A stretch of 34,058 bases of DNA from NCBI GenBank assembly GCA_903913865.1, contig CAIWMU010000200.1, forward strand, positions 1 through 34,058, written 5' to 3'. Below, piece after piece: positions 2,578 through 27,975 of this stretch (the first letter of the stretch is position 1; each line of letters starts with the position of its first letter). This DNA comes from an uncultured Verrucomicrobia subdivision 3 bacterium (lineage in GTDB: Bacteria; Verrucomicrobiota; Verrucomicrobiia; Limisphaerales; UBA8199). The translations under genes were made by a program, and so were the position numbers. The notes below the pieces were generated by a model. That model worked only from the letters and a program-made list of their open reading frames with translations, did not search any database and was not told where the DNA came from.

Positions 2578-5500
2578 TCAGGGATATTTGGCCCTGAAGA
2601 ACCGGGGTGCGGGGCTTGAGGGACTGGCATTCGTGAGAACAATCGTTCCGCTGGTGTTGATCATCTCCGCAATGGGCATCCATTCCACAAGGTTCGTAGA
2701 GCATTGAAGCTGAATCATAAACCCCGGATCGCTGGATATCTTGAGGGTCACCCCTCCATCAGGGAGAGGAGTGATGAGGTTGAACAAAGGAGGAATGGAT
2801 GGTGTGACGGTGAGCAGTGCCGACCCGCTTGTCGTGGAGCCCGCACTATTCGTGACGATTACGGAGTAGGGTCCAGCATCTGCGGCCTGCAGGTTGCCAC
2901 GGGTGATGGATGTGGCTGTGGCCCCGGGGATATTGGTCCCATGAAGCCGCCACTGGTAGGCCGGGGCAGGAGTGCCTCCCGCATTGGCCGTGAATGTTGC
3001 GCTCGAAGCCCTGGGGCGGCTCAGACCTGATGGTTGCCTGGTGATATAGGGAGGAATATTGGTGACGAACCGTTCCACCCTCACATTGTCAAAGATGCAA
3101 AAGCTCAGGTTTGTGTTGTCGGAGAGCGACGCGAAGTAGTCCCACAGTCCTATCGAAATGTTGTCTGCGGTCGTCGTTGCCCCGGTGATGGTTGCCATCC
3201 TGAGGCCGTCGATGAACCACTCAACAGTGCCACCTGTTTTGGAGATAATGACATCGCGCCAGGCAAAGCCGATGCTGCCGACCGCCAATCCGCCTGATTG
3301 TTGAGCGTAGGCGCTCTGCTGCAAGGACGGGGCGGTCTGACCCGCAGGGAAGGTCGCCGCGTAGTAAGCGTTGTTATTTCCACGGGAATCGCTGCCCGTG
3401 CCTGCCGAATAAATGCCGGAGGCCGCCGTGTGGTAGGTTGTTCCGCTGAATGCGCCGAAGTCATTCAAACTGGTGGTGGAGGTGTCGGATGCCTGGCCCT
3501 CCCCATCGGCCGCGAACCAGAAACCGTCCGCCGTGGAACCTGCGGCTGTCCATAGGACTCTATTTCCCGCCGTGCCGATTCCGGCGGTTGCATGTTGTGA
3601 AGAACCGACCCCACCGGCGGGGAATGGTCCGTTCTGGTTCATCCAGAGGTCGAAGCGGAGCCGGAAATCGCCTGTAGCAGTTTGGCCTATGGGGGAGAGA
3701 CTGATTGCTGCCGGGACTCCCAGAGAGACGTTTGCCTCAAGTTTCAATCCCCGCGTCGTATTGCTGACGGAGTTCGGGGCTGAAGGAATGCCGTAAGGGG
3801 CGTAGTTGTAGTTAAACGTGGCCCGGGAATCCGTGGAGGACCGGTTAATGGCCCAATTCCCGCTGGTGTTGGCATCAAAATCATCGAAAAACAGCCGCCT
3901 CAGCGGGGGAAGCATGGTTTCCACAAGTGCCACGGAACTTGTTGCCGCTCCGAAACGGTTCGTCACGATCACATCGTAATAGCCGGAGTTTGAGGGAGTG
4001 GCACTGTTGATTGCGAGCGTGGGAGTTGTGGCTCCGGCGAGGGGTGAGTCGTTGAACCGCCACTGGTAACTCAAGGGGGGTGAGCCGGAGGCGGTTACGT
4101 TCAGGACGAGATTCGACCCCTGCACCACTCGCTGGCTCTGCGGCGGGGATGTCACGCCGGCCGGGATATTTGTGGCCACGACCGTGTTTAGAAAGTTCAG
4201 GGCACTGGCCATGTATTCGGCGCGGCGGGTTGCGCTGGTGATGGACTCGAAGGGGAATCCGAGAAGCAGGGTTCGACCGCCACCGACGGAGCCGTCATAC
4301 TGAACTGCGGCACCAGCACCGGTTGCGTAAGTCATTGCTGTGGAGGCTCCCGCTCCGAAAGGGCCGAGTTGGTCCGGGGATTGGAGCCAATAAATCCCCT
4401 TTGTGCCATCGTCCAGGCTGGCACCGGATCGGCCTGCGAGCAGTCCGCCTGCCGTCGGGTTGGCGGCATAGCTGCCGGAATTATCGTTTGTGAAAGCGGC
4501 GTGGAGTTGGGTGTGGAGGAATATGCGATCTGCGGCCGTTGGGCCTGTGGGACCATCCAAATCAAGCGCCACATCGGCACCCGAAACAAAGAGCGCGCCT
4601 CCTGATGAAAGGTAGGCCGATATGCGTGATTGTTCGGCTGAACTGAAGGTTTCGCTGTTTGTTGATTCGTTGCCGCAGGCCCAAATGACAACCGGATAAT
4701 TGCCCAGGGCAATCTGTGCGCCCGTGATGGCCTCATTCTGGCAGGAATCGAACGTTGCCCCGCAGGCGGCAAGGGCTTTGCCGTGGGAAACGACGTAGTC
4801 GAAGGAATTAATCCAACGCGGGAAAACCCGCTCAATCGTGCCACTGTTTGCGGGAGGACCCCAGCTTTGGGCGGTGACGTTTTGCCTCAGGTTTGTGGTT
4901 CGGTCATAGCGGTCAAATCCGTTGACCACCAGGACGCGCGTTGTTCCCGGTGTGAGGCTGGTCCGGCAGCCCGCCACTTCGGAGGGCATGCTTTCACCGC
5001 CACCGTTGGAAGCGCTCACCCTGAAGTAGTAGTCCACACCGGAAGGAATGTTCGACAGGGTGATGCTGGTTGCCGGCCCGGCATTGAGAGGGTTCCCAAA
5101 CCCGTAACCGTTGGTCGAGCGGTAGACGGTGTAGTTCGTCGGGTTCTGGCTCCCGCCAAGCGCCACAGGCGCACTCCAGGCCAGGGAAATTTGCCCGGCA
5201 GCTCCCGCCACAGCCCGGAGATTGGTGGGGGCTTCAGGAAGGAACTGGAGACCGGGAGGGTGGTTGGTGTCGAACTGGTTCATGAACTTCACGATCGAGT
5301 GCATGGCGGCTTTCCCGACAGCCGCCCTGGCCTTGGGATCCCGCATGATGGCGGCATCGGTGGCATCATCATGAAACGCCACCTCGATGATGGTTGCCGC
5401 CATCTCATAATTGAAGTAGCTGCCGTCGATTTCAGAATAGCCGCCTGTGTAGGTGTGGGTGGCCCGGTTGTTCCAGGTCGCTTCCAGCGGAGGCGAACCG

Positions 5501-6750
5501 AGGGCCACCAGATCGTCATTCACCTCTCCGCCAGCGATATTTGCGAGGTCGGCCTGCGCGGGCGTTGGATCGCTCGTGATCAGTGCCATTGTCCCGCGCC
5601 CGCCCCCGGCGTTGGAGTGGAAGCCGATGTGGATGCGGTCGAAGATATCGCCCGAATCTTCACGGTTCATTTCCGCCGACATTTTCGGCGGGGCGGACCA
5701 ACTGTCGCTTTCGTCCGTGCCGGAACCGTCATAAAGGGCGGAGGACTGGCCCTGACCGAGGTTTGCCTGCACCCAGTAGCGCATGCTCTCATCCTCCCGG
5801 GGGTAGCGGGAGATCCCCCCTCCGCGATCTACGGTGCCCATGCCGTTGCCGAACCGGATTGCATCCGCGACCACCACAGTGCCATTGGTGCTGCCGCGCA
5901 GGTTGCTGATCACGACGGAACCATTCAACGAATTGGATCCGGCGTTGAAGTAGTATTCGCCCATGTAAACCCAGCCGTTGCCGACCCGATAATGGGGAAT
6001 GCGCACCTGGGATTCACCGCCGGTGTGGCGTATGCGGTAAAGTTGGTCCCCGCGATCCAGCCCGTGGCGTGTCCAGCAGTAAACCGGGTAAAACCCGGCT
6101 GATGGAAGGGTGGGTGTGTAGGATGCGGTGGCGGTCTCCGTGGCATCCAGATTTGCAAACCGGTAGGGGACGTCGCCCGCCGTCCCCCAGAAAATGGTCG
6201 AGGTGCTGTCACTCCATCCGCCGGACCAGGTCACTGCCGGATCATCGTTATCGATGATTGCCTCGTTGGTCTGGTGCCCCAGCGGGCGCATCGAGACAAT
6301 TGTGGCACCCGCGTTGAAGCAGTAGGCGGCAAAGAAATTGAGCTGGTCCAGATTGCCGTAGTCCTCGTTCATCAGGTTTCCGATACCCCGTTGCAAACGC
6401 CAATAAGTGGGGTCGTAGATCCAGCCGTGGCCACTGTTCATGTAAACGACCTTTCCGGAGAGGACGCCGCGCTGCTGCTGGGCCGAGGAGGCCGTATTTG
6501 CGAAGGATCTCGGGGCGGGTGGCGATCGAAAGTAATGAACGGGAGCGTTGTTGGGTTCACTCCAGTCAGGAGAGAGGATGGTTCGCATGTCCGGGTGATC
6601 CGGATCAATGCGGTCGGCCAGATCCGACCCTGAAGGAAGGCCTAAAGCGTGAGATTGGGCGGTCCCCGCCAGGGCAAGGACCAGGGTGATCCGCGTGACA
6701 AGCCGTTGCGCTGGCCCGGAAGGGAGCAGGTTCGAGAAAGGACGCATCAT
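2578..6750 (-). CDS. Secreted multidomain N-acetylmuramoyl-L-alanine amidase with inserted golvesin-type domain
   Basis: A 1390-residue exported protein with a signal peptide over residues 1-36. The catalytic part looks like Amidase_3, the zinc enzyme that cuts the stem peptide from peptidoglycan MurNAc. Candidate zinc ligands are His108 (MNSGHGW), Glu129 (NLMNED) and His378 (GFHSNAG), with catalytic Glu456 (ATIIEVAFHDD). Residues about 164-303 interrupt this domain with a golvesin C-terminal-like module (W...G, GFYPVYCW, ending VVVADAIRFG). Downstream come an FN3 domain (about 505-597), a flavodoxin/glutaminase-like alpha-beta region (about 604-860), an Ig-like repeat, a concanavalin-like beta-sandwich, a second Ig-like repeat, and a C-terminal 'CSTNLVEW ... 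RFFRAKYP' tail typical of Verrucomicrobiota secreted proteins. It stands alone between a convergent and a divergent gene. The amidase call rests on motifs and is good. The functions of the appended domains, probably wall or glycan binding, are inferred. Confidence 0.8.
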   Translation of the reverse strand: MMRPFSNLLPSGPAQRLVTRITLVLALAGTAQSHALGLPSGSDLADRIDPDHPDMRTILSPDWSEPNNAPVHYFRSPPAPRSFANTASSAQQQRGVLSGKVVYMNSGHGWIYDPTYWRLQRGIGNLMNEDYGNLDQLNFFAAYCFNAGATIVSMRPLGHQTNEAIIDNDDPAVTWSGGWSDSTSTIFWGTAGDVPYRFANLDATETATASYTPTLPSAGFYPVYCWTRHGLDRGDQLYRIRHTGGESQVRIPHYRVGNGWVYMGEYYFNAGSNSLNGSVVISNLRGSTNGTVVVADAIRFGNGMGTVDRGGGISRYPREDESMRYWVQANLGQGQSSALYDGSGTDESDSWSAPPKMSAEMNREDSGDIFDRIHIGFHSNAGGGRGTMALITSDPTPAQADLANIAGGEVNDDLVALGSPPLEATWNNRATHTYTGGYSEIDGSYFNYEMAATIIEVAFHDDATDAAIMRDPKARAAVGKAAMHSIVKFMNQFDTNHPPGLQFLPEAPTNLRAVAGAAGQISLAWSAPVALGGSQNPTNYTVYRSTNGYGFGNPLNAGPATSITLSNIPSGVDYYFRVSASNGGGESMPSEVAGCRTSLTPGTTRVLVVNGFDRYDRTTNLRQNVTAQSWGPPANSGTIERVFPRWINSFDYVVSHGKALAACGATFDSCQNEAITGAQIALGNYPVVIWACGNESTNSETFSSAEQSRISAYLSSGGALFVSGADVALDLDGPTGPTAADRIFLHTQLHAAFTNDNSGSYAANPTAGGLLAGRSGASLDDGTKGIYWLQSPDQLGPFGAGASTAMTYATGAGAAVQYDGSVGGGRTLLLGFPFESITSATRRAEYMASALNFLNTVVATNIPAGVTSPPQSQRVVQGSNLVLNVTASGSPPLSYQWRFNDSPLAGATTPTLAINSATPSNSGYYDVIVTNRFGAATSSVALVETMLPPLRRLFFDDFDANTSGNWAINRSSTDSRATFNYNYAPYGIPSAPNSVSNTTRGLKLEANVSLGVPAAISLSPIGQTATGDFRLRFDLWMNQNGPFPAGGVGSSQHATAGIGTAGNRVLWTAAGSTADGFWFAADGEGQASDTSTTSLNDFGAFSGTTYHTAASGIYSAGTGSDSRGNNNAYYAATFPAGQTAPSLQQSAYAQQSGGLAVGSIGFAWRDVIISKTGGTVEWFIDGLRMATITGATTTADNISIGLWDYFASLSDNTNLSFCIFDNVRVERFVTNIPPYITRQPSGLSRPRASSATFTANAGGTPAPAYQWRLHGTNIPGATATSITRGNLQAADAGPYSVIVTNSAGSTTSGSALLTVTPSIPPLFNLITPLPDGGVTLKISSDPGFMIQLQCSTNLVEWMPIAEMINTSGTIVLTNASPSSPAPRFFRAKYP

Positions 6751-6907: not shown

Positions 6908-6936
6908 TTGATGTGGGGACCGGTTGCTTTTACTCT
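6908..6936 (+). promoter_or_regulatory. Sigma70-like promoter of the GrpE-like gene
   Basis: TTGATG (6908-6913) and TACTCT (6931-6936) are 17 nt apart. The -10 box ends 6 nt before the ATG at 6943, again predicting a leaderless mRNA. The -10 match is modest. A hairpin, AGGCCAA (6854-6860) with TTGGCCT (6869-6875), lies upstream between the divergent promoters. Confidence 0.4.
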
Positions 6937-6942
6937 TGGATC

Positions 6943-7764
6943 ATGAGTCATGGTGAGAATCCCAAGCTGGCCAAGTGGCCTTTTTTTGCTGCCGACCTCC
7001 TTTTGCTGGTCTGCGCCTATTTCGTTGTGTCGCGCGGTCCCGAAACGCTGGATTTATGGCGGTCGATCGTGATCGTGGCGGCTGTGGGTCTTGGGGGGTA
7101 TGTCAGCGTGCTGCCGTTCCTGAAGGAATACGAGTCCTCCACAAAGTTGGCGGAGGTGGGTGAGTTGGAGGGGGTGGTGGGGCAGATTGACAAGGTGGAG
7201 ACGATCGCCGCGCAGATCACCGGGGCAACCTCGCGGTGGCAGTCGGTCCAGGAGGCATCCGAGAGGATAGTGAAACAATCCACAGAGATATCGAACCGGA
7301 TGACGGCGGAGGCACGGGCGTTCTCGGATTTCATGAAGAGCACGAACGATGTGGAAAAGACGAATCTGCGGCTGGAGGTGGAGAAATTGCGTCGGGTCGA
7401 GGGCGATTGGCTTCAAGTGCTCGTTCATGTTCAGGATCATGTCTTCGCGCTTCACCAGAGCGGGGTCCGCTCGGGACAGCCGGCACTGATCGAGAATTTG
7501 ACCAGTTTCCAGGGGGCATGCCACGATGCGTCCCGCCGGGTGGGGCTTGGGGTCTTCGCTGCTGCGCCGGGGGAGGTTTTTGATCCGAAGCGGCACCAGC
7601 TGGTGGAAGGGGATGCCTCCGCCTCCGCCGGGCGTGCGATTGCAGGAACCCTCGCCCCCGGCTACACATTCCAGGGACGATTACTTAGACCCGTGGTGGT
7701 CCAACTGCAGGCTGATGGTGCGGGGGCAACACCGCCCGTTGAAGATCCGGTCGAGACGGTCTGA
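6943..7764 (+). CDS. Membrane-anchored coiled-coil protein with GrpE-like C-terminal domain
   Basis: A 273-residue protein. Two hydrophobic segments (about residues 13-30 and 41-60) form a hairpin anchor. They are followed by a long polar, heptad-like helix (about 63-155) and then a region resembling the C-terminal half of the nucleotide-exchange factor GrpE: an FDPKRHQLVEG segment (213-223), close to the 'fDPnxHeAv' signature, then APGYTFQGRLLRPVVVQLQ (238-256), close to 'GYxlxgRvlRpAxVxV'. GrpE releases ADP from DnaK in the cytosol. A membrane-tethered version would act at the inner face of the membrane, but this is inference. Usual GrpE proteins are about 180-220 residues and soluble. No dnaK or dnaJ gene is nearby. 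The ATG at 6943 is preferred over upstream in-frame codons because it follows a promoter by 6 nt. Confidence 0.7.
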   Translation: MSHGENPKLAKWPFFAADLLLLVCAYFVVSRGPETLDLWRSIVIVAAVGLGGYVSVLPFLKEYESSTKLAEVGELEGVVGQIDKVETIAAQITGATSRWQSVQEASERIVKQSTEISNRMTAEARAFSDFMKSTNDVEKTNLRLEVEKLRRVEGDWLQVLVHVQDHVFALHQSGVRSGQPALIENLTSFQGACHDASRRVGLGVFAAAPGEVFDPKRHQLVEGDASASAGRAIAGTLAPGYTFQGRLLRPVVVQLQADGAGATPPVEDPVETV

Positions 7765-20113: not shown

Positions 20114-21139
20114 ATGTTCGCGCAATTTAAAAGCCTCTTTTCCAATGACATTGGGATAGACTTGGGGACCGCAAATTCCCTCGTGTATGTACGAGACAGG
20201 GGAATTGTTCTGCGGGAACCCTCTGTCGTGGCCATTCAGGCAGGAACCACCAACGTACTTGCGGTAGGCGAGGAAGCCAAACGCATGCTTGGGCGGACCC
20301 CTGGAAACATAGTGGCCATCCGGCCGATGAAAGACGGTGTCATTGCTGATTTTGAGATCACCGAGGCGATGCTCCGGCACTTCATCCAAAAAGTTCACCA
20401 CCGCAAATTGATAGCCCCACGCGTTGTGGTGGCGGTGCCTTCGGGCATCACGGAGGTTGAGAAGCGGGCGGTCAAAGATTCCGCCACGCACGCCGGAGCC
20501 CGGGAGGTTTACCTCATTGAACAACCGATGGCCTCGGCCATAGGGGTTGGACTGCCGGTTCACGAACCGGCGGGTAATATGATCGTTGACATTGGCGGTG
20601 GGACTTGCGAAATCGCAATCATCTCCCTGGCCGGCATCGTCTTTAGCCGCAGCCTGCGGGTTGGCGGGGACGAATTTGACGAAACGATCGTTGCGCACAT
20701 GAAGCGTGCCTACAACCTGATGATTGGGGAACGCACGGCGGAAGAGATCAAGATACGTATAGGCTCTGCCTTTCCGCTGGAGCAGGAATTAACCATGGAA
20801 GTGAAGGGACGCGATCTTAGCGCCGGTCTGCCCAAAACGCTGACCATCCGCTCAGAAGAAATCCGCGAAGCCCTGCAAGAGCCGCTGTCGAGTATTTTGG
20901 AGTCCGTTCGCATCACCTTGGAGCGCTGCCCCCCTGAGCTTTCCGCCGATCTTGTGGATCGGGGGATAGTCATGGCGGGAGGTGGAGCGCTTGTGAGAGG
21001 CATTGACCGGCTGGTTGCCGAAGAGACCGGTCTGCCGGTCCATATTGCCGACGACCCCCTGAGCGCAGTCGCTGAGGGAACCGGTCGTGTCCTGCAGGAA
21101 CTCCAATTCCTCAAGCGAGTCGCTTCCAGTTCCAAGTAG
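20114..21139 (+). CDS. mreB: Rod shape-determining actin homologue MreB
   Basis: A 341-residue protein of normal MreB length. The phosphate-1 loop is [15 protein letters not shown], the phosphate-2 loop [16 protein letters not shown] and the adenosine loop [13 protein letters not shown], all intact. The N-terminal [10 protein letters not shown] is the short amphipathic helix that attaches many MreBs to the membrane. MreB filaments under the inner membrane guide the elongasome, which inserts new peptidoglycan along the side wall. It leads the cluster mreB-mreC-mreD-mrdA-rodA-rng, the order usual for rod-shaped bacteria. The gap to mreC is about 120 nt, so the following genes may have extra control. 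Nothing in the sequence suggests loss of function. Confidence 0.97.
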
Positions 21140-21262
21140 CCCGGTCCCTCCAATCATCAGACCACCCTCCTGTTCCTTTGCGAAGGTTCAGAGGGGAATC
21201 AGAGGCAGGTGTTAGAGCCCGCTTCGGCCCGGCAATTCCGGGTGAATGAGTCTGAGAATCGG

Positions 21263-22072
21263 ATGTTAAAACGGCCGCATTACATAGCCCTCGGCCTGGC
21301 TGCTTTGCTGACACTGATGGTGCTGAATCTGCCCGCGCGAGCGACGGAGCGGCTGAAGCTTGCCATTGGCAGCATTTTTGTACCCCTCTTCGGTCTCACC
21401 AGCACGGCCCAGCAACTGCCTTCCTCGGTTGGAAATCTGCTCATTACCCGCAAGGAACTGCTCCGCCAGAATGAGGTTCTCCGCATTGAAAATCAGCAGC
21501 TCAAATTGCAGGAGGCTCGGGCTGAAAATATCGAGCGGGAGAATGCCCGGTTGCGCCAGATTGTGGGCTGGCAGCATCAGCGTGGATGGAAGATGAAGCT
21601 CGGCAGGGTTATTCTCCGGGAGCCTGCCAACTGGTGGCGCAGTGTTCAGATTGATCTGGGTGCGCGGGAGGGCATCAGCAACAACCTGCCGGTCATCACC
21701 ATTGATGGGTTCCTTGTCGGGCGGACGGCCTCGGTTGGACTGACCCGTTGCCAGGTGTTGCTGGTTGGAGATCCCAACTGCCGGGTCTCCGCCCGGGTCG
21801 AAAACGAGGCCAGGGACACGGGGGTGATAGGTCCCGCCGGCCCGCTTGAGAGGGAGTTTGTTGAATTGGGGTATCTCTCCCGCAACGCGATTTTGAAGCC
21901 GGGCCAGGACATCGTCACGAGCGGTTTGGGAGGGATATTCCCCAAGGATGTCCCCGTCGGGAAGATTGTCGATTCACACCAGATCGATTTTGGCTTTCAG
22001 ACTCTGGCCCGGGTCCGTCTTGGGGCCAATTTGAACTCCCTGGAGGAGGTATGGGTGCTACTTGAAAAATAG
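21263..22072 (+). CDS. mreC: Rod shape-determining protein MreC
   Basis: A 269-residue protein from the ATG at 21263. It has a single N-terminal membrane segment (about residues 8-25), a coiled coil (about 55-95, with KELLRQNEVLRIENQQLKL) and the two-beta-barrel periplasmic domain with the typical ILREPANWWRSVQIDLGARE, GLVG-like (DGFLVGRTASVG) and EFVELGYLSRNA segments. MreC sits in the inner membrane and activates the PBP2-RodA synthase. A GTG at 21209 is also in frame and has a purine-rich AGAGG before it. The later ATG is preferred because it puts the membrane segment directly at the N-terminus, as in related proteins. Its stop lies one base before the mreD start. Confidence 0.93.
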   Translation: MLKRPHYIALGLAALLTLMVLNLPARATERLKLAIGSIFVPLFGLTSTAQQLPSSVGNLLITRKELLRQNEVLRIENQQLKLQEARAENIERENARLRQIVGWQHQRGWKMKLGRVILREPANWWRSVQIDLGAREGISNNLPVITIDGFLVGRTASVGLTRCQVLLVGDPNCRVSARVENEARDTGVIGPAGPLEREFVELGYLSRNAILKPGQDIVTSGLGGIFPKDVPVGKIVDSHQIDFGFQTLARVRLGANLNSLEEVWVLLEK

Positions 22073-22073
22073 G

Positions 22074-22625
22074 ATGAGCATTCCCCACACATTGTTGCTC
22101 CTTCTGGCCGCGTTTGGGGCGGTTTTTGTCCAGGCAGCTTTTCCTCTCGGGCGAATGCTCTTTGGCGCGCAAATTGATCTCCTCCCCTCGCTGGTAGTCT
22201 ATGCAGCCCTTTCCGGCGGGGTTTCCGCCATGTGCCTGGTTTCGATTTGGGGTGGGCTCCTGTTTGATTCCCTCTCCGCAAATCCGCTTGGAACCAGCCT
22301 GCCCCCCCTCCTGTTGGCGGGAACTGTGATTCTTCTGAACCGGGAACTCATTCTCCGGGATCAAACCTTTGCCCAGGCCGTGCTGGGGGTTTGTTCCAAC
22401 GCCGTGTTTGGTGTGTTCAGTCTGCTCATCCTGCTGCACCTCGGGACGCGTCCCACGCTGGGGTGGGGGACTGTCTGGGAGTTGCTGGTGACGGCTTTGG
22501 GGGGGGGCGTGTTGTCACCGTTGACCTTTCAACTGTTCGGATGGCTGGAGCGCCACCTGACCCATGGTGTGGTCGTGCAAACCAGCTTCAGAAACGACAG
22601 GGAAATCCGCAGGGGGCGTGGATGA
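22074..22625 (+). CDS. mreD: Rod shape-determining membrane protein MreD
   Basis: A 183-residue, highly hydrophobic protein with about five predicted membrane segments and the MreD-like opening MSIPHTLLLLLAAFGAVFVQ, then FGAQIDLLPSLVVYAAL and GLLFDSLSANPLGTS ('GLl.D......lG' is the MreD signature). MreD is a small inner-membrane partner of MreC in the elongasome. The ATG follows the mreC stop by one base, so the two are probably translated together. An in-frame TTG at 22062 inside mreC is less likely. Downstream, about 110 nt containing a palindromic element separate it from the PBP2 gene, whereas the other junctions in the second half of the cluster overlap or nearly touch. Confidence 0.9.
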   Translation: MSIPHTLLLLLAAFGAVFVQAAFPLGRMLFGAQIDLLPSLVVYAALSGGVSAMCLVSIWGGLLFDSLSANPLGTSLPPLLLAGTVILLNRELILRDQTFAQAVLGVCSNAVFGVFSLLILLHLGTRPTLGWGTVWELLVTALGGGVLSPLTFQLFGWLERHLTHGVVVQTSFRNDREIRRGRG

Positions 22626-22659
22626 AGATCACCCTCCAACATTCAGGCAAGTCCACTCA

Positions 22660-22711
22660 GGGGTCAGTCCTCACTTTTTGTAAACGACACAAAAAGGTGA
22701 GGACTGACCCC
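22660..22711. repeat. Palindromic repeat element between mreD and mrdA
   Basis: The left arm GGGGTCAGTCCTCAC plus TTTTTGT (22660-22681) and its inverted copy ending GTGAGGACTGACCCC (22689-22711) match at every base except one extra C. The loop is the 7-nt AAACGAC. The core GGGGTCAGTCCTCAC is one I associate with REP-like elements mobilised by REP-associated tyrosine (Y1) transposases. That link is from memory, not a search. The RNA would form a 22-bp hairpin inside the polycistronic message. Confidence 0.75.
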
Positions 22712-22734
22712 CTTCGCTGCATGGGGGGTGGGGG

Positions 22735-24777
22735 ATGCTGATTGTTGATCAGTTGAGGAAGGACGATCCGCAGCTGCGCTTTCTGGCGGTGGTGGTTCTG
22801 GGCGGTTTGTGTGTCCTGCTATCCGGCCTGTGGTGGGTTCAGGTCATCGCCCGGCATGATTATCAGGCGAACCTCGAGACCCAGTCCTTCCGGACTGTTC
22901 GCATTCCGGCGGTGCGTGGGCGGATCATGGATCGCAATGGCATCGCCCTGGCTGAAAATCGGCCCACGTACAATGTCAGCCTCTATCTGGAGGAACTCCG
23001 GAAACCTTTCGATGCAGCATCTGACGCCCTGGTGGTTGAGGGGCGGGCCACCCTGCGCGGCCAGGCGGAGCAGCGGGAGAAAGCCCTCGGGCGCAGCCTC
23101 TCCAAGGAGGAACGCAAACAGTTTTCGCTCGGGGTTCGGGAGAAAAATGACATGCGTCGGCTGGCCCGTTACCTCGTGGCGAGCAACGTGGTTTATCAGG
23201 TCGGACGTCAGCTTCAAATTCCGCTGGCTCTGGACCGGACCGATTTTGAACGCCACTACGACACCCGGCTGGCCCTGCCGTATCCCGTGCTGCGGAATCT
23301 GGAACCGGTGCAGATCGCCCGTTTTCAGGAGCAATCCACATCCCTTCCCGGAGTGGATATTGAAATCCAATCCACCCGTGTCTATCCCTTTGCAGGAACC
23401 TCGGCCCACCTGGTCGGGGCTCTGCGTCGGGACGATAGCTCCACGGAGGGTGAGGAGGCGTTTTTCTCCTATCGCCTTCCGGATTACCGTGGGGATCTGG
23501 GCATCGAGTATGGCTTTGACCGTTATCTTCGTGGAACCGCCGGGGCGAAGTCGGTGCTGGTGAACAATATAGGATACCGCCAGATGGAGCAGGTGTGGAG
23601 TTCCGTGGAGCCGGGGTCCAACATCGTGCTCACGGTGGACATGCGGCTGCAGCAGGCGGCTGAGAAGGCGATGCAGAGCGGTCCCCACGGGGCGCTGACG
23701 CGCGGGGCCGCCGTCGTGATGAACGTTCAAAATGGGGACGTGCTGGCGCTGATCTCCTCCCCGAGCCTAAATCCAAATCACTTCATCCATGGATTTCCCA
23801 GGGGGGAATGGCAGCGGATCATTGAAACCCAGGCACAGAAAAACAGGGCAACCCAGGAGAATTATGCGCCCGGGTCGATTTTCAAAACCGTGGTGGGGTT
23901 GGCCGCGCTCGAAGCGGGGCTGAATCCAAGGGCCACCATGGTCGTCCCGGAAAACCCGAATCAAAGGGGCAGGGGCTATTTTGTCCTGGGTCGCCGGGTC
24001 ATCCGGGACACCGCGCCTCCGGGCGTTTACGACTTCAAGAAAGCCCTCAAGCTCTCAAGCAACACCTACTTCATATCGCATGGCATCCAGCTCGGGCCTG
24101 AGCCGATCATTGCCCTGGGACACAAGTTTTTCCTCGGGGAGCGATTCGGCCTGCCGACCCGCCAGGAAACAGGTGGATATTTTCCAGATGCGGGCCGTGT
24201 GCGTGGGCATTGGACTGATGGCAATACGGCGAACCTTTCCATTGGACAGGATCCTGTGCTGGTCACCCCGTTGCAGGTTGCGGTCATGATGTCCGCTCTG
24301 GGGAATGGCGGGACAGTTTACTGGCCCCGGCTGGTTTCCCGGATCGAACCGGTGGACACTCTGTCAGGCTCGGTTCCGGTGGAGTTCCCCGCCGGTGTGG
24401 TTCGGGGTCGTCTTGGGGTCAGGCAGGGGAGCCTCACCGCCCTGTATGAAGCCATGCTGGCCGATACTGAGGATCCGGATGGCACGGGCAGCCATGTGCG
24501 GGATCACGCCAACATCCAGGGCTTGCGGATCTGCGGCAAGACGGGCACCGCACAAATCATGGACGAGCGCAACGTGAAGACCGGCCAGACAACATGGTTT
24601 GCGTCATTTGCCCCCTTTGAGAAGCCAAAGTATGCCGTCGTTGTGATGGTCGAGAATGGGGCTTCCGGCGGGGGGACCTGCGCGCCGATTGCAGGAAAGA
24701 TTTATCAGGCTCTTCTCGAGGTGGAAAAGGGAGTGGAGCTTTCGGGGGCACTTGCGAAAGCGGAGGTGGTTCGATGA
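22735..24777 (+). CDS. mrdA: Penicillin-binding protein 2, elongasome transpeptidase
   Basis: A 680-residue class B PBP. One membrane helix lies at about residues 16-38, followed by the pedestal/dimerisation domain (starting VRGRIMDRNGIALAENRPTY) and the transpeptidase domain. The three active-site motifs are intact: Ser381-Ile-Phe-Lys384 (APGSIFKTVVG), Ser441-Ser-Asn443 (LKLSSNTYF) and Lys602-Thr-Gly604 (CGKTGTAQ). GIEYGFDRYLRG is the usual anchor-domain motif. The enzyme cross-links peptidoglycan stems during side-wall growth, paired with RodA, and is the target of mecillinam-type beta-lactams in model species. A G-rich stretch (GGGGGTGGGGG) precedes the ATG. The stop overlaps the rodA start by four bases (ATGA), consistent with one-to-one production of the PBP2-RodA complex. 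Confidence 0.96.
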   Translation: MLIVDQLRKDDPQLRFLAVVVLGGLCVLLSGLWWVQVIARHDYQANLETQSFRTVRIPAVRGRIMDRNGIALAENRPTYNVSLYLEELRKPFDAASDALVVEGRATLRGQAEQREKALGRSLSKEERKQFSLGVREKNDMRRLARYLVASNVVYQVGRQLQIPLALDRTDFERHYDTRLALPYPVLRNLEPVQIARFQEQSTSLPGVDIEIQSTRVYPFAGTSAHLVGALRRDDSSTEGEEAFFSYRLPDYRGDLGIEYGFDRYLRGTAGAKSVLVNNIGYRQMEQVWSSVEPGSNIVLTVDMRLQQAAEKAMQSGPHGALTRGAAVVMNVQNGDVLALISSPSLNPNHFIHGFPRGEWQRIIETQAQKNRATQENYAPGSIFKTVVGLAALEAGLNPRATMVVPENPNQRGRGYFVLGRRVIRDTAPPGVYDFKKALKLSSNTYFISHGIQLGPEPIIALGHKFFLGERFGLPTRQETGGYFPDAGRVRGHWTDGNTANLSIGQDPVLVTPLQVAVMMSALGNGGTVYWPRLVSRIEPVDTLSGSVPVEFPAGVVRGRLGVRQGSLTALYEAMLADTEDPDGTGSHVRDHANIQGLRICGKTGTAQIMDERNVKTGQTTWFASFAPFEKPKYAVVVMVENGASGGGTCAPIAGKIYQALLEVEKGVELSGALAKAEVVR

Positions 24778-25991
24778 TGCGCCCGGGTTTCCTTTTGAGT
24801 GAGTCCCAATCCCGTGTTGAGGCGTTGCAGATTGCCGCCCTAGCCGGATTGATGGTCATAGGGGCGGCCTTTGTTTTCAGCGCCACCATGGTCAGCGAGG
24901 CGGCTGCCGCCGCCCCCTGGTACAGCCAAAGTTGGTTCAGGCAGGTCGCATACTACATTCTGGGCGCTGCCGCCGCCACCGCGGTCTGCCTGGTGGATTA
25001 TCGAATCTGGGCGCGCTGGTCTTTTGTAATCTATTGGATCATGATTCTGCTGCTGGTGGCGGTGCTCATTCCGGGCATCGGTTCCATGCGGTTTGGCGCC
25101 CGAAGATGGATCGATCTTAGATTCTTCCAGTTCCAGCCGTCTGAATTTGCGAAGCTGGCCTTTGTCGTGGCACTCGGGCATTACCTGAGCCGTCCGGTGG
25201 ACGAGTTGCGGGAGCTTGGCACGTTTGTCCGGTCGCTTGGGTTCATGGCACTGCCGTTCATCCTGATCATGAAGGAGCCGGATCTGGGATCGGCGTTGGT
25301 CCTGCTTCCGGCAGGCCTGGTGATGATGTTTGTCGCAGGCACTCCCCGCCGGTATTTGATCCGGCTGGGAATTGCAGTGGGCCTGCTGGGCGGGTTGTTT
25401 TTGGTGGATGTTCTATTCGCCCCGCCGAACTGGCAGGTCAAGCTGGAGGATTATCAGCGGCGTCGGTTGCTTGTCTATTTTGGCATTCAGCCCACAGCTC
25501 CGGCGGGAGCCAGCAAGGCGGAGCAGGAGTTGCTCAGGCGCCGGCAGTTCGACGATTCGCACAACGTGCGGCAGGCGCTGATTTCAGTGGGGTCAGGTGG
25601 CCTGACCGGGGCCGGGTGGCGGCAGGGGACGCAAAACTCCCTGGGCTATTTGCCGAGGGCGGTGGCGCACAACGATTTCATCTTCTCGGTCATTGCCGAG
25701 GAGAAAGGATTTGCAGGCAGCGTGGTGGTTATCACGCTCTACGGGGTGGTTCTGTTCACGGGGATCAGAATCGCCGGCCAGGCACGCGATCGCCTGGGCA
25801 AAATCATGGCGGTTGGCATCGTCATGATCTTTTTCAGCCATGTGTTTATCAATATTGGGATGAATATTCGTCTCATGCCGGTGACGGGTGTGCCACTGCC
25901 GCTGCTGAGTTACGGCGGGTCATCAGTGCTCACTTCGTTGATCTCGATCGGCATGTTGCAAAACATCCACATCTACAGAAAGGCTTATTAA
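24774..25991 (+). CDS. rodA: Peptidoglycan glycosyltransferase RodA (SEDS family)
   Basis: A 405-residue polytopic membrane protein with about ten hydrophobic segments. SEDS-family hallmarks are present: GARRWIDLRFFQFQPSEFAK in the first half, KEPDLGSALVLLPAGL, and the C-terminal LLSYGGSSVLTSL. The extracellular loop between about 215 and 290 carries the charged segment SVGSGGLTGAGWRQG. RodA polymerises lipid II into glycan strands and works as a complex with PBP2, whose gene overlaps it by four bases. The rng gene starts two bases after its stop. Length and motifs are normal for the family. Confidence 0.96.
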   Translation: MMRPGFLLSESQSRVEALQIAALAGLMVIGAAFVFSATMVSEAAAAAPWYSQSWFRQVAYYILGAAAATAVCLVDYRIWARWSFVIYWIMILLLVAVLIPGIGSMRFGARRWIDLRFFQFQPSEFAKLAFVVALGHYLSRPVDELRELGTFVRSLGFMALPFILIMKEPDLGSALVLLPAGLVMMFVAGTPRRYLIRLGIAVGLLGGLFLVDVLFAPPNWQVKLEDYQRRRLLVYFGIQPTAPAGASKAEQELLRRRQFDDSHNVRQALISVGSGGLTGAGWRQGTQNSLGYLPRAVAHNDFIFSVIAEEKGFAGSVVVITLYGVVLFTGIRIAGQARDRLGKIMAVGIVMIFFSHVFINIGMNIRLMPVTGVPLPLLSYGGSSVLTSLISIGMLQNIHIYRKAY

Positions 25992-25992
25992 A

Positions 25993-27975
25993 ATGAGTGA
26001 CAGAAACTTCTCCCGGCGACGCCGGGGTGGAATGCGTTTCCGCCCTACGGGCGGGCTGGGGCACACACAGCCGCACCAGCAGCAGAAGCAGGATCGGGAG
26101 GCTTTGCAGGCCCGCACGGAGGCTGTCGGCGAAGAAAACTCGCCGGACATGGTTTACGATCACAAGCACGCCAGTGAAATTGAGCGGGCGGAAAACCTCG
26201 CCGCCGGACTTCCCGCCGATGGGATCCACCGGGCGGGTGGGGATGGCGGGGGCGACAAGCACGACTTCCGCGAGCCGAATCTTGAGACGGCCGCAGAGGT
26301 TCAGGAAGAACAGCCGTTCAAGCCTGTCCCCGTGCCGGAACAGCCCAAGGGCATTCTTGAGACCATCCGCATGGTCGCAACGAACCTTGTCAAAAAGGTT
26401 CAACGGCTGATCAAGCCGGTGCAACGCCAGCACAAGGAGGTCATCATCAATGCTGAGACCCTTGAAACCCGCGTGGCGGTTCTCGAGGAGGGGCGTCTTG
26501 AGGAGTTCACCATTGAACGGACCTCCGAGGAGCGGCTGGTTGGAAGTATCTTCAAGGGCAGGGTGCGCAACCTGGAGGACGGCCTGAAAGCCGCCTTCGT
26601 GGACATCGGCTTTGAGAAGAACGCCTTCCTGCACTATTGGGACATCGTCCCGAGCAGCTTCGACAGCGGGGTGGAGATCGTTGAGCGGGAGGGCAACAAG
26701 CGCCGCGACCGCCCCAAGATCACTCAGAAGGACATTCCCCGCCTCTACCCCCCGGGTGGTGAGATCATCGTGCAGGTCACCAAGGGACCGATCGGCACCA
26801 AGGGGCCGCGGGTCACCACAAACCTGGTGCTGCCCGGCCGTTACCTTGTGCTTCTTCCGAATTCCGACCAGAGCGGTATTTCCCGCAAGATCGAAAACCA
26901 GCAGGAGCGCCAGCGCTTGAAGAAGATTCTGCGCGAGCTGAGCATTCCCGAGGGCATGGGAGTCATCATGCGGACAGTGGGTGAGGGACAGCAGAAGCGT
27001 TATTTCGTGCGCGATCTTGCGCTGCTGCTCGAGGAGTGGAAGGGAATTCAGGAGCGGATCAAGACCCGTCCACCGGCCACCTGCGTGTTTCAGGAGCCGG
27101 ACCTTATCGAGCGGACGGTGCGTGATTTCCTCACGGAGGATGTCGAGCGGATCGTTGTGGACAGTCCCCAGGCCTGCGACCGCATGCGGGAGATGATTTC
27201 AAAGATCTCCCGCCGTTCGGCCGACAAGGTGAAAATCTATTCCGATCCCCAGCCGATCTTCGACCGGTTCGGCATCACCCGCCAGTTGGAGAATGCCTTC
27301 TCGCGGCAGGTACATCTGAAGAGCGGCGGTTACATTGTCGTGGATGAGACGGAGGCGCTGGTTGCGATCGACGTGAACACCGGCCGCCACAAGGGCAGCA
27401 AGGATCAGGAATCAACCATTCTCAAGGTCAACATTGAGGCTGCCGATGAGATCTCCCGCCAGTTGCGCCTGCGCAACATGGGAGGTTTGATCGTGCTCGA
27501 TTTCATCGACATGAAATCCCGGCGCGACCAGCAGTCGGTCTATCAGCGCATGAAGGACGGTCTCCGGCGCGACAAGGCCAAGACCCATGTGCTGCCCATC
27601 TCCCAGCTGGGCCTGATGGAAATGACCCGCCAGCGCCATTCCGAGAGTGTGAATGCGGCTGTTTACGATGATTGCCCCTATTGCAAGGGCAGGGGCAAGG
27701 TGAAGAGCGCCCTCACCATGAGCGTGGAAATTCAGCGGAAGCTCAGCGAGATCCTCAAGAAGCGCTCCCGCGATGAGTCCGACTTCCAACTCCGCATCGT
27801 GGTTCACCCCACGATTCTGGAGCGGTTGCGCACGGAGGATGAAAAGCACCTCATCGAAATGGAGAAGCGCTATTTCGGCAAGCTCTCCTTCCGGGCCGAT
27901 CCGGCCCTGCATGCGGAGCAGTTCAAGATCGTCAATGTGGCCACCAACGAGGACCTGGCCAGCGTCGGTTGCTAA
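25993..27975 (+). CDS. rng: Ribonuclease E/G family endoribonuclease with N-terminal extension
   Basis: A 660-residue protein. The catalytic core runs from about residue 158 to the end. It has an S1 RNA-binding domain (about 185-270), catalytic Asp460 (ALVAIDVNTG) and Asp503 (IVLDFIDM), and the Zn-link Cys561-x-x-Cys564 (CPYCKGRG). The offsets between these residues equal those of E. coli RNase E (303, 346, 404, 407), so the core is complete. It cuts single-stranded AU-rich RNA in mRNA decay and rRNA/tRNA processing. The first 157 residues are extra: an Arg-rich start (SRRRRGGMRFRP) and a low-complexity Gln/Glu/Gly-rich stretch, then a basic helix (ETIRMVATNLVKKVQRLIK) that might touch RNA or membrane. 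The large C-terminal scaffold of RNase E is absent. The gene follows rodA by two bases, a known cluster order. Confidence 0.93.
   Translation: MSDRNFSRRRRGGMRFRPTGGLGHTQPHQQQKQDREALQARTEAVGEENSPDMVYDHKHASEIERAENLAAGLPADGIHRAGGDGGGDKHDFREPNLETAAEVQEEQPFKPVPVPEQPKGILETIRMVATNLVKKVQRLIKPVQRQHKEVIINAETLETRVAVLEEGRLEEFTIERTSEERLVGSIFKGRVRNLEDGLKAAFVDIGFEKNAFLHYWDIVPSSFDSGVEIVEREGNKRRDRPKITQKDIPRLYPPGGEIIVQVTKGPIGTKGPRVTTNLVLPGRYLVLLPNSDQSGISRKIENQQERQRLKKILRELSIPEGMGVIMRTVGEGQQKRYFVRDLALLLEEWKGIQERIKTRPPATCVFQEPDLIERTVRDFLTEDVERIVVDSPQACDRMREMISKISRRSADKVKIYSDPQPIFDRFGITRQLENAFSRQVHLKSGGYIVVDETEALVAIDVNTGRHKGSKDQESTILKVNIEAADEISRQLRLRNMGGLIVLDFIDMKSRRDQQSVYQRMKDGLRRDKAKTHVLPISQLGLMEMTRQRHSESVNAAVYDDCPYCKGRGKVKSALTMSVEIQRKLSEILKKRSRDESDFQLRIVVHPTILERLRTEDEKHLIEMEKRYFGKLSFRADPALHAEQFKIVNVATNEDLASVGC

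Follow-up and report, generated by a model that had tools for sequence, protein, structure and literature searches.

Can the fold of a nucleotide exchange factor be fixed at a membrane and, if it can, would the protein that carries it still behave as a GrpE? GrpE is treated as the single soluble partner of bacterial DnaK. The question is raised by a gene in a 34,058-nucleotide stretch of DNA (here called the window) from an uncultured Verrucomicrobia subdivision 3 bacterium, which an initial annotation read as encoding a membrane-tethered, GrpE-like protein. How much of this protein is GrpE, where does the remainder come from, how widely is it kept, and what might its head do near a membrane?

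Gene start, membrane hairpin, and fold

The mechanical open reading frame of the GrpE-headed gene, on the plus strand, opens upstream at TTG 6865. In most relatives, an ATG (taken as the one nearest to the match) lies at, or a few codons from, the position aligned with 6943, and on that basis ATG 6943 is accepted as the start codon (Table 1). The suggestion in the initial annotation that the gene may be leaderless is supported by what precedes this codon: TTGATG at 6908-6913, a 17-base spacer, TACTCT at 6931-6936, and then 6 bases before the ATG. The same type of pattern, TTGnnn-16/17/18-TAnnnT, is found in 16 of the 55 upstream stretches scanned (one of them short, L029, and one with Ns, L021), compared with 1.03 on average and at most 5 in 500 mononucleotide shuffles, and it ends 6 to 12 bases before the ATG in 15 of its 16 carriers; the full pattern was not found in the remaining 39 of the 55. 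Shine-Dalgarno-like 4-mers occur in only 2 of 54 upstream stretches. The position of the putative promoter is consistent with a leaderless mRNA, and in a sizable share of the order the message of this gene is likely to be of that kind.

Hydropathy places two membrane segments at about residues 12-30 and 36-54, and an AlphaFold model built with 55 sequences (mean pLDDT, 91.3) consists of a helix at 12-31, an unbroken helix at 38-177, a helix at 180-199, and then strands to 255. The two transmembrane segments originally noted are thus borne out by both approaches, and a membrane tether is predicted; with its two predicted membrane helices, the protein is unlike soluble cytosolic GrpE. In 54 of 55 sequences, the lysines and arginines of the N-terminal tail and of the region after helix 2 outnumber those of the intervening loop, which favors both ends lying inside but is a weak sign given that 32 residues are set against a loop of 9.

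Does the C-terminal part fold as a GrpE does? Structure prediction, the check that had been proposed for the GrpE assignment, agrees with it. GrpE or GrpEL1 accounts for every one of the 10 best Foldseek matches of the model in the PDB (E values of 4.8e-6 to 1.3e-3), and the next match has an E value of 1.0. VIA-align pairs the model with 1dkg_B at a Z score of 11.1 (147 residues, 3.4 A), and its first six rows are GrpE; on the contrary side, the GrpE chain 3a6m_A comes only 34th (Z score, 6.5), among unrelated helical proteins, and a VIA Z score alone is weak evidence for helical models. Across AlphaFold, Foldseek, and VIA, the bundle of short helices and the beta domain of GrpE are present in this protein.

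Table 1. Features of the GrpE-headed gene and its product, in window coordinates
Feature	Position	Strand	Basis
Coding sequence of the GrpE-headed membrane stalk protein, 273 aa	6943..7764	+	ATG 6943 to stop 7764
Putative sigma-70-like promoter, TTGATG-17-TACTCT, ending 6 bases before the ATG	6908..6936	+	Sequence pattern
Residues 1-61, predicted membrane hairpin (helices 12-31 and 38 onward), KWPF...D...P58 pattern	6943..7125	+	Hydropathy, model, profile match
Residues 62-157, helical stalk common to the CBM-headed family, not GrpE	7126..7413	+	hhalign
Residues 158-260, GrpE-derived head, two short helices and beta domain	7414..7722	+	hhalign, Foldseek/VIA

Separate descent of stalk and head

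The initial annotation had noted a long helix together with a GrpE-like C-terminal half. Is the long helix the coil of GrpE itself? The family alignment was cut into three pieces, namely, hairpin (residues 1-61), stalk (62-157), and head (158-260), and the pieces were compared by hhalign, whose E values here refer to single pair comparisons and are inflated by coiled or membrane segments. A family of proteins from other orders of the class, which we call CBM-headed for its terminal domain, provided the closest comparison. Its hairpin matches that of the GrpE-headed protein over 61 of 61 columns with an E value of 9.2e-27, whereas the best of 62 unrelated membrane segments reached 0.0039. The two stalks match in register over 94 columns (E value, 1.7e-7), although the two halves of the stalk taken alone get no further than 0.0011 and 0.00032. 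Against 17 canonical GrpEs of the same order, by contrast, the stalk gives an E value of 0.17, and a control comparison of canonical GrpE with the CBM-type stalk gives 0.098. The head behaves in the opposite manner: it matches residues 86-187 of canonical GrpE with an E value of 4.9e-9 and does not match the stalk of the CBM-headed protein (0.3), and a whole-profile alignment of the two families stops at column 199. Based on these piecewise matches and their controls, the GrpE part starts near residue 158, and its own coil is absent. The GrpE-type head therefore stands, at 158-260, and the reading of the long helix as GrpE coil does not. As judged by profile comparison, only the head is GrpE-derived, and the long predicted helix is a stalk that belongs to a different membrane protein of Verrucomicrobiota.

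Could the resemblance of the head to GrpE itself be an artifact of composition, a coiled-coil membrane protein that matches GrpE by chance? GrpE is the sole Pfam match of the 273-residue protein, and the single-sequence score is modest (33.1 bits against a cutoff of 25.8; E value, 5.4e-8); moreover, when PF01025 was run against 50 copies of the membrane form (source included), 40 scored over the cutoff at the same place, 1 fell below it, and 9 were not matched, which leaves 10 of 50 that would fit a chance match. That possibility is countered by the head alone, which matches by profile as described above, by the model, which matches by fold, and by a profile of 55 sequences that finds six PDB sequences at E values up to 0.01, all of them GrpE or GrpEL1 (best, 1.3e-6). 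We consider the artifact refuted as far as computation can refute it, and we give it next to no credence.

What, then, does the same stalk carry elsewhere? The CBM-headed protein, alike in hairpin and stalk, differs in having a long low-complexity linker and a CBM20-like beta-sandwich head instead of the GrpE head. The 17 loci of other orders that were read (L087 to L103) all end in this different domain of 86 to 91 residues, for which a beta sandwich is predicted with a pLDDT of 96; Foldseek places the CBM20 domain of STBD1 first among the matches of that model (E value, 5.8e-5). A Pfam scan of these heads gave no convincing family (two families were hit, each in 1 of 17; best E value, 0.051), and no PDB sequence match was found up to an E value of 1. 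Clustering of open reading frames at 19 loci (L087 to L105) gave, by inspection, no recurring neighbor recognized as a glycogen gene. Our guess is that the CBM-headed group is Opitutaceae-like. Separately, matches to the CBM20-like head were found at eight places, in frames of 135 to 231 amino acids, in five genomes of the source order.

The hairpin was found in 32 of 113 sampled genomes of the class, 18 of the same order and 14 in two families (f59 and f62) of other orders, with one match in 29 of the 32 and two matches in 3; Pfam scans of the hairpin-stalk module returned no family. When 286 genomes of the class were searched with the full family profile, 198 were matched at 0.001, in many cases through an ordinary GrpE. 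Among the matches listed, strong full-length ones (1.2e-54 or better) occur in the same order only, in 50 of the 52 genomes of that order listed. Some families belonging to other orders are matched over roughly the first 60 to 200 positions, and most of the frames concerned have 400 to 800 residues.

Hairpins of the same kind also occur in small proteins, one of them in the source genome (L142, at G000:C14:33403-33567; the others are L104, L135, L136, and L137), which carry an N-terminal KPxLGRGLGxLLG motif and the hairpin at or near the C terminus. A profile of these five sequences matches the hairpin with an hhalign E value of 7.3e-19; L142 alone reaches 8.7e-7, and only 7.4e-4 in the genome search. 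We take the motif to resemble the ParA-activating N terminus of ParB; in a Pfam scan of two of the five, no match reached the cutoff.

These distributions lead us to speculate that a hairpin-and-stalk platform exists across the class and that its heads are exchanged: one order would have a GrpE head that docks Hsp70, others a head like those that bind alpha-glucan, and further small proteins nothing but the hairpin, placed behind a tail resembling ParB-N. We offer this generalization tentatively, as a proposal somewhat less likely than not to hold. A membrane module with exchangeable heads would thereby be exposed in a little-studied phylum.

Distribution, the normal GrpE, and candidate partners

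How consistently is the GrpE-headed form kept? It was matched in 53 of the 58 genomes of the order (source included), mostly near full length; the five genomes with no match range widely in completeness (G008, 97%; G020, 57%; G031, 95%; G039, 80%; and G042, 78%), and further matches within the same genomes are weak (E value of 1e-5 or worse). Conservation across the phylum, which the initial annotation had raised, holds at the level of the order; a sample of 145 genomes of the phylum gave no further full-length match among the matches listed.

Nor does this protein take the place of a normal GrpE. In the source genome, a separate grpE (164.1 bits) lies on contig C250 directly upstream of dnaJ, which settles whether a normal copy exists beside its usual neighbor, and an ordinary dnaK lies on contig C24. 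When 55 genomes were searched with PF01025, 54 had some match and 53 had a match far stronger than the membrane form (best E value of 1.5e-22 or better), that of G034 being split over two contig ends; the exceptions are G011, where the sole match is the membrane form, and G038, which has none. The GrpE-headed protein is a genuine second protein of the GrpE fold, spread across the order and predicted to sit at the membrane. A different kind of additional grpE was seen at L124, L125, and L126 and at places in G007, G009, G045, and G046, where a divergent gene lies directly beside hsp70 and comes on top of the normal one.

Is there a partner encoded nearby? As first noted, neither dnaK nor dnaJ lies beside the gene, and none was found on the contig of the window. 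By tblastn over 47 windows (the source window and 46 others; two contigs are represented twice), dnaK was found in one (L057), and dnaJ and a normal grpE were found in none. In the single positive case (genome G040), the GrpE-headed gene stands head to head with the main dnaK, an arrangement that, as one case in 47, may be chance. An operon partner was considered and rejected, as clustering of open reading frames over the 47 windows gave no shared functional neighbor. A gene for an AddA-like helicase (named from a motif only) stands tail to tail with the GrpE-headed gene, 61 to 309 bases away, in 6 of the 47 windows (L039, L041, L047, L048, L055, and L073), which represent six genomes of five families; this adjacency looks like old gene order and not an operon. 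Elsewhere in the window, mreB, a PBP transpeptidase gene, rodA/ftsW, and an RNase E/G gene form one cluster by Pfam (20114-27975), and a minus-strand gene (2578-6750) encodes a 1,390-residue protein with Golvesin C-terminal, fn3, and Ig domains.

Two candidates encoded at a distance were also set aside. Many of the genomes, not all, contain a second DnaK whose profile match is split near position 351 (for example, G001:C57 and G032:C17). This second DnaK as an obligate pair was rejected, since each of the two occurs without the other (E values up to 1e-20): the GrpE-headed protein lacks such a DnaK in the source genome, G016, G029, and G051, and the second DnaK is present without the GrpE-headed protein in G020, G031, and G042. 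A membrane J-protein as a dedicated partner was likewise rejected: it was found in 9 of 55 genomes (source included), and in two or more of these the match is confined to the J-domain part. The source genome itself encodes two J-domain proteins with predicted membrane segments, G000:C214 (L130) and G000:C181 (L129), and L130 is the one whose relatives are patchy, in the 9 of 55 genomes just given.

Head residues and a proposed role at the membrane

Does the head keep the residues with which a GrpE meets its Hsp70? The family alignment has 55 rows (57 members minus L024 and L074, which have overlong frames), and the reference consists of 17 normal GrpEs of the order (20 were fetched, and 3 divergent Hsp70-linked ones were counted apart). 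Twenty-eight head positions are near invariant in the normal GrpEs (16 or 17 of 17). Of these 28, 12 are retained by most of the membrane forms, 8 of them by 44 or more of the 55 sequences, and another 12 persist in no more than 5. The best-kept positions are D165, G201, and G240 (55 of 55 each), H218, R249, and V253 (54 each), F213 (50), and D214 (45). The initial annotation had named the loss of DnaK-contacting residues as the result that would speak against its reading, and that loss is found for about half of them. Within the FDPxxH[EQ]A and GY....R motifs, His (54 of 55), Gly (55), Tyr (41), Asp (45), and the Arg equivalent to R186 (54) are kept in most sequences, and Pro (22) and Ala (6) are mostly lost, a mixed picture for these motifs. 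The position of E. coli G122 is Gly in 17 of 17 normal GrpEs of the order and in 0 of 55 membrane forms, where it is Gln in 47, and the basic N-x-[KR]-x-R motif of the long GrpE coil is absent from the aligned columns. The position mapped by alignment to M. tuberculosis R169 is Ala in 50 of 55 and is Gln in E. coli. The membrane form also has conserved residues of its own, such as W156, C193, R198, R199, and the Gln at the G122 position.

The constraint on these columns is informative as well. The head helices and the lower stalk hold about 2.8 bits per column, compared with 2.7 to 3.1 in the same columns of normal GrpE, so both regions are under constraint; the beta domain is less conserved in the membrane form (2.3 to 2.6 bits versus 3.2 to 3.3). 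Constraint on the lower stalk need not mean contact with Hsp70, because the lower stalk is also common to the CBM-headed protein. As reported, G122D abolishes exchange in E. coli and G122 lies on the face that meets a hairpin of the nucleotide-binding domain (NBD) (PMC10825016), and the long helix of GrpE contacts the NBD, the linker, and the substrate-binding domain (SBD) (PMC10803776 and PMC11685456). How should change at such positions be read? The divergent GrpEs encoded beside hsp70 (L124 to L126) keep the Gly of the G122 position, the Pro, and the Ala and have lost the His; because they too have diverged, residue change alone is compatible with an Hsp70 partner. The loss of Gly, Pro, and Ala in the membrane form exceeds the change in these proteins.

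Might the protein nonetheless be a fully working exchange factor that runs the GrpE reaction locally at the membrane? We think this unlikely. The Pfam score over the cutoff, the GrpE fold, and the Arg kept at the R186 position would fit such a protein, and the loss of R183, which we had considered as proof against exchange, was dropped, since characterized GrpEs vary there (Gln in M. tuberculosis and Ala in Thermus, as read from alignments) and this Arg is not universal even among them; set against these points are a G122 position that is never Gly, the absence of the canonical coil, and an FDP Pro retained in fewer than half of the sequences. Exchange activity of the GrpE-headed protein is doubtful.

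Is Hsp70 involved at all? The head could instead be a GrpE-fold scaffold with a new partner, that is, a dimerizing, protein-binding tip with no Hsp70 contact, the conserved function residing in the hairpin and stalk. It is the hairpin and stalk, not the head, that are common to the CBM-headed family; since that stalk bears another head in other orders, its role need not concern Hsp70. The 12 of 28 typical head positions that survive in so few sequences, the conserved residues peculiar to the membrane form, and the rarity of dnaK (1 of 47 windows) and dnaJ (0 of 47) near the gene point the same way. What this explanation does not account for is the retention of F213, H218, G240, and R249 of the beta domain in 50 to 55 of 55 sequences, and to our knowledge the GrpE head has no partner other than Hsp70. 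We regard the scaffold as a credible explanation that is nevertheless probably not the right one.

Starting from the architecture, the fold, the conservation, and the coexistence with a normal GrpE, which are established by computation, we posit a stalk protein that is anchored in the membrane and whose head, derived from GrpE, probably docks Hsp70 and anchors or slows it in place of fast exchange; our confidence in this proposal is evenly poised. In this model, the two-helix hairpin would sit in the inner membrane with both ends probably in the cytoplasm, and one long helix, presumably dimerized, would carry the head to a distance of about 14 nm (for 96 residues and a helical rise of 1.5 A per residue, if the stalk is one helix). 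The head, with its bundle-plus-beta-domain fold, would probably dock an Hsp70 near the membrane, most likely the ordinary DnaK; docking of DnaK is the likeliest use because we know of no other partner for such a head. Anchoring or a changed rate is to be expected because the GrpE coil has been replaced and positions of the G122 type are changed, and the protein would more likely anchor or slow Hsp70 than copy the normal fast exchange cycle. The GrpE-headed protein is best kept out of the class of GrpE exchange factors, given the absent coil, the changed G122 position, and the predicted membrane helices.

If the docking model is true, these cells would have a second, spatially fixed Hsp70 station, and, as far as our searches reach, the GrpE fold would have its first member anchored in a membrane. 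Among the papers listed in searches of open-licence literature there was no membrane-anchored GrpE, which is weak evidence of absence, and the words "transmembrane," "membrane-anchored," and "membrane-bound" do not occur in a review on GrpE-like factors. An order-wide membrane GrpE fold would show that the exchange-factor head is separable from its own coil and can be placed in space, and the protein makes it testable which part of GrpE holds Hsp70.

How does it compare with the systems that are known? With the GrpE and GrpEL1 exchange factors (PF01025; 1DKG, 4ANI, 8GB3, and 9BLS), it has in common the bundle and beta-domain fold and the F-D..H and G-Y....R positions. It differs from them in its N-terminal hairpin, in a long coil of other descent, in the changes at G122 and several other contact positions, and in being encoded away from dnaK and dnaJ while coexisting with a normal GrpE. 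A second comparison is with the organelle proteins Mge1 and GrpEL1, which work with an import motor and also use the exchange-factor fold at a membrane. Those factors are soluble, however, and the membrane tether of the import motor is another subunit, whereas in the GrpE-headed protein the predicted tether and the head belong to one chain.
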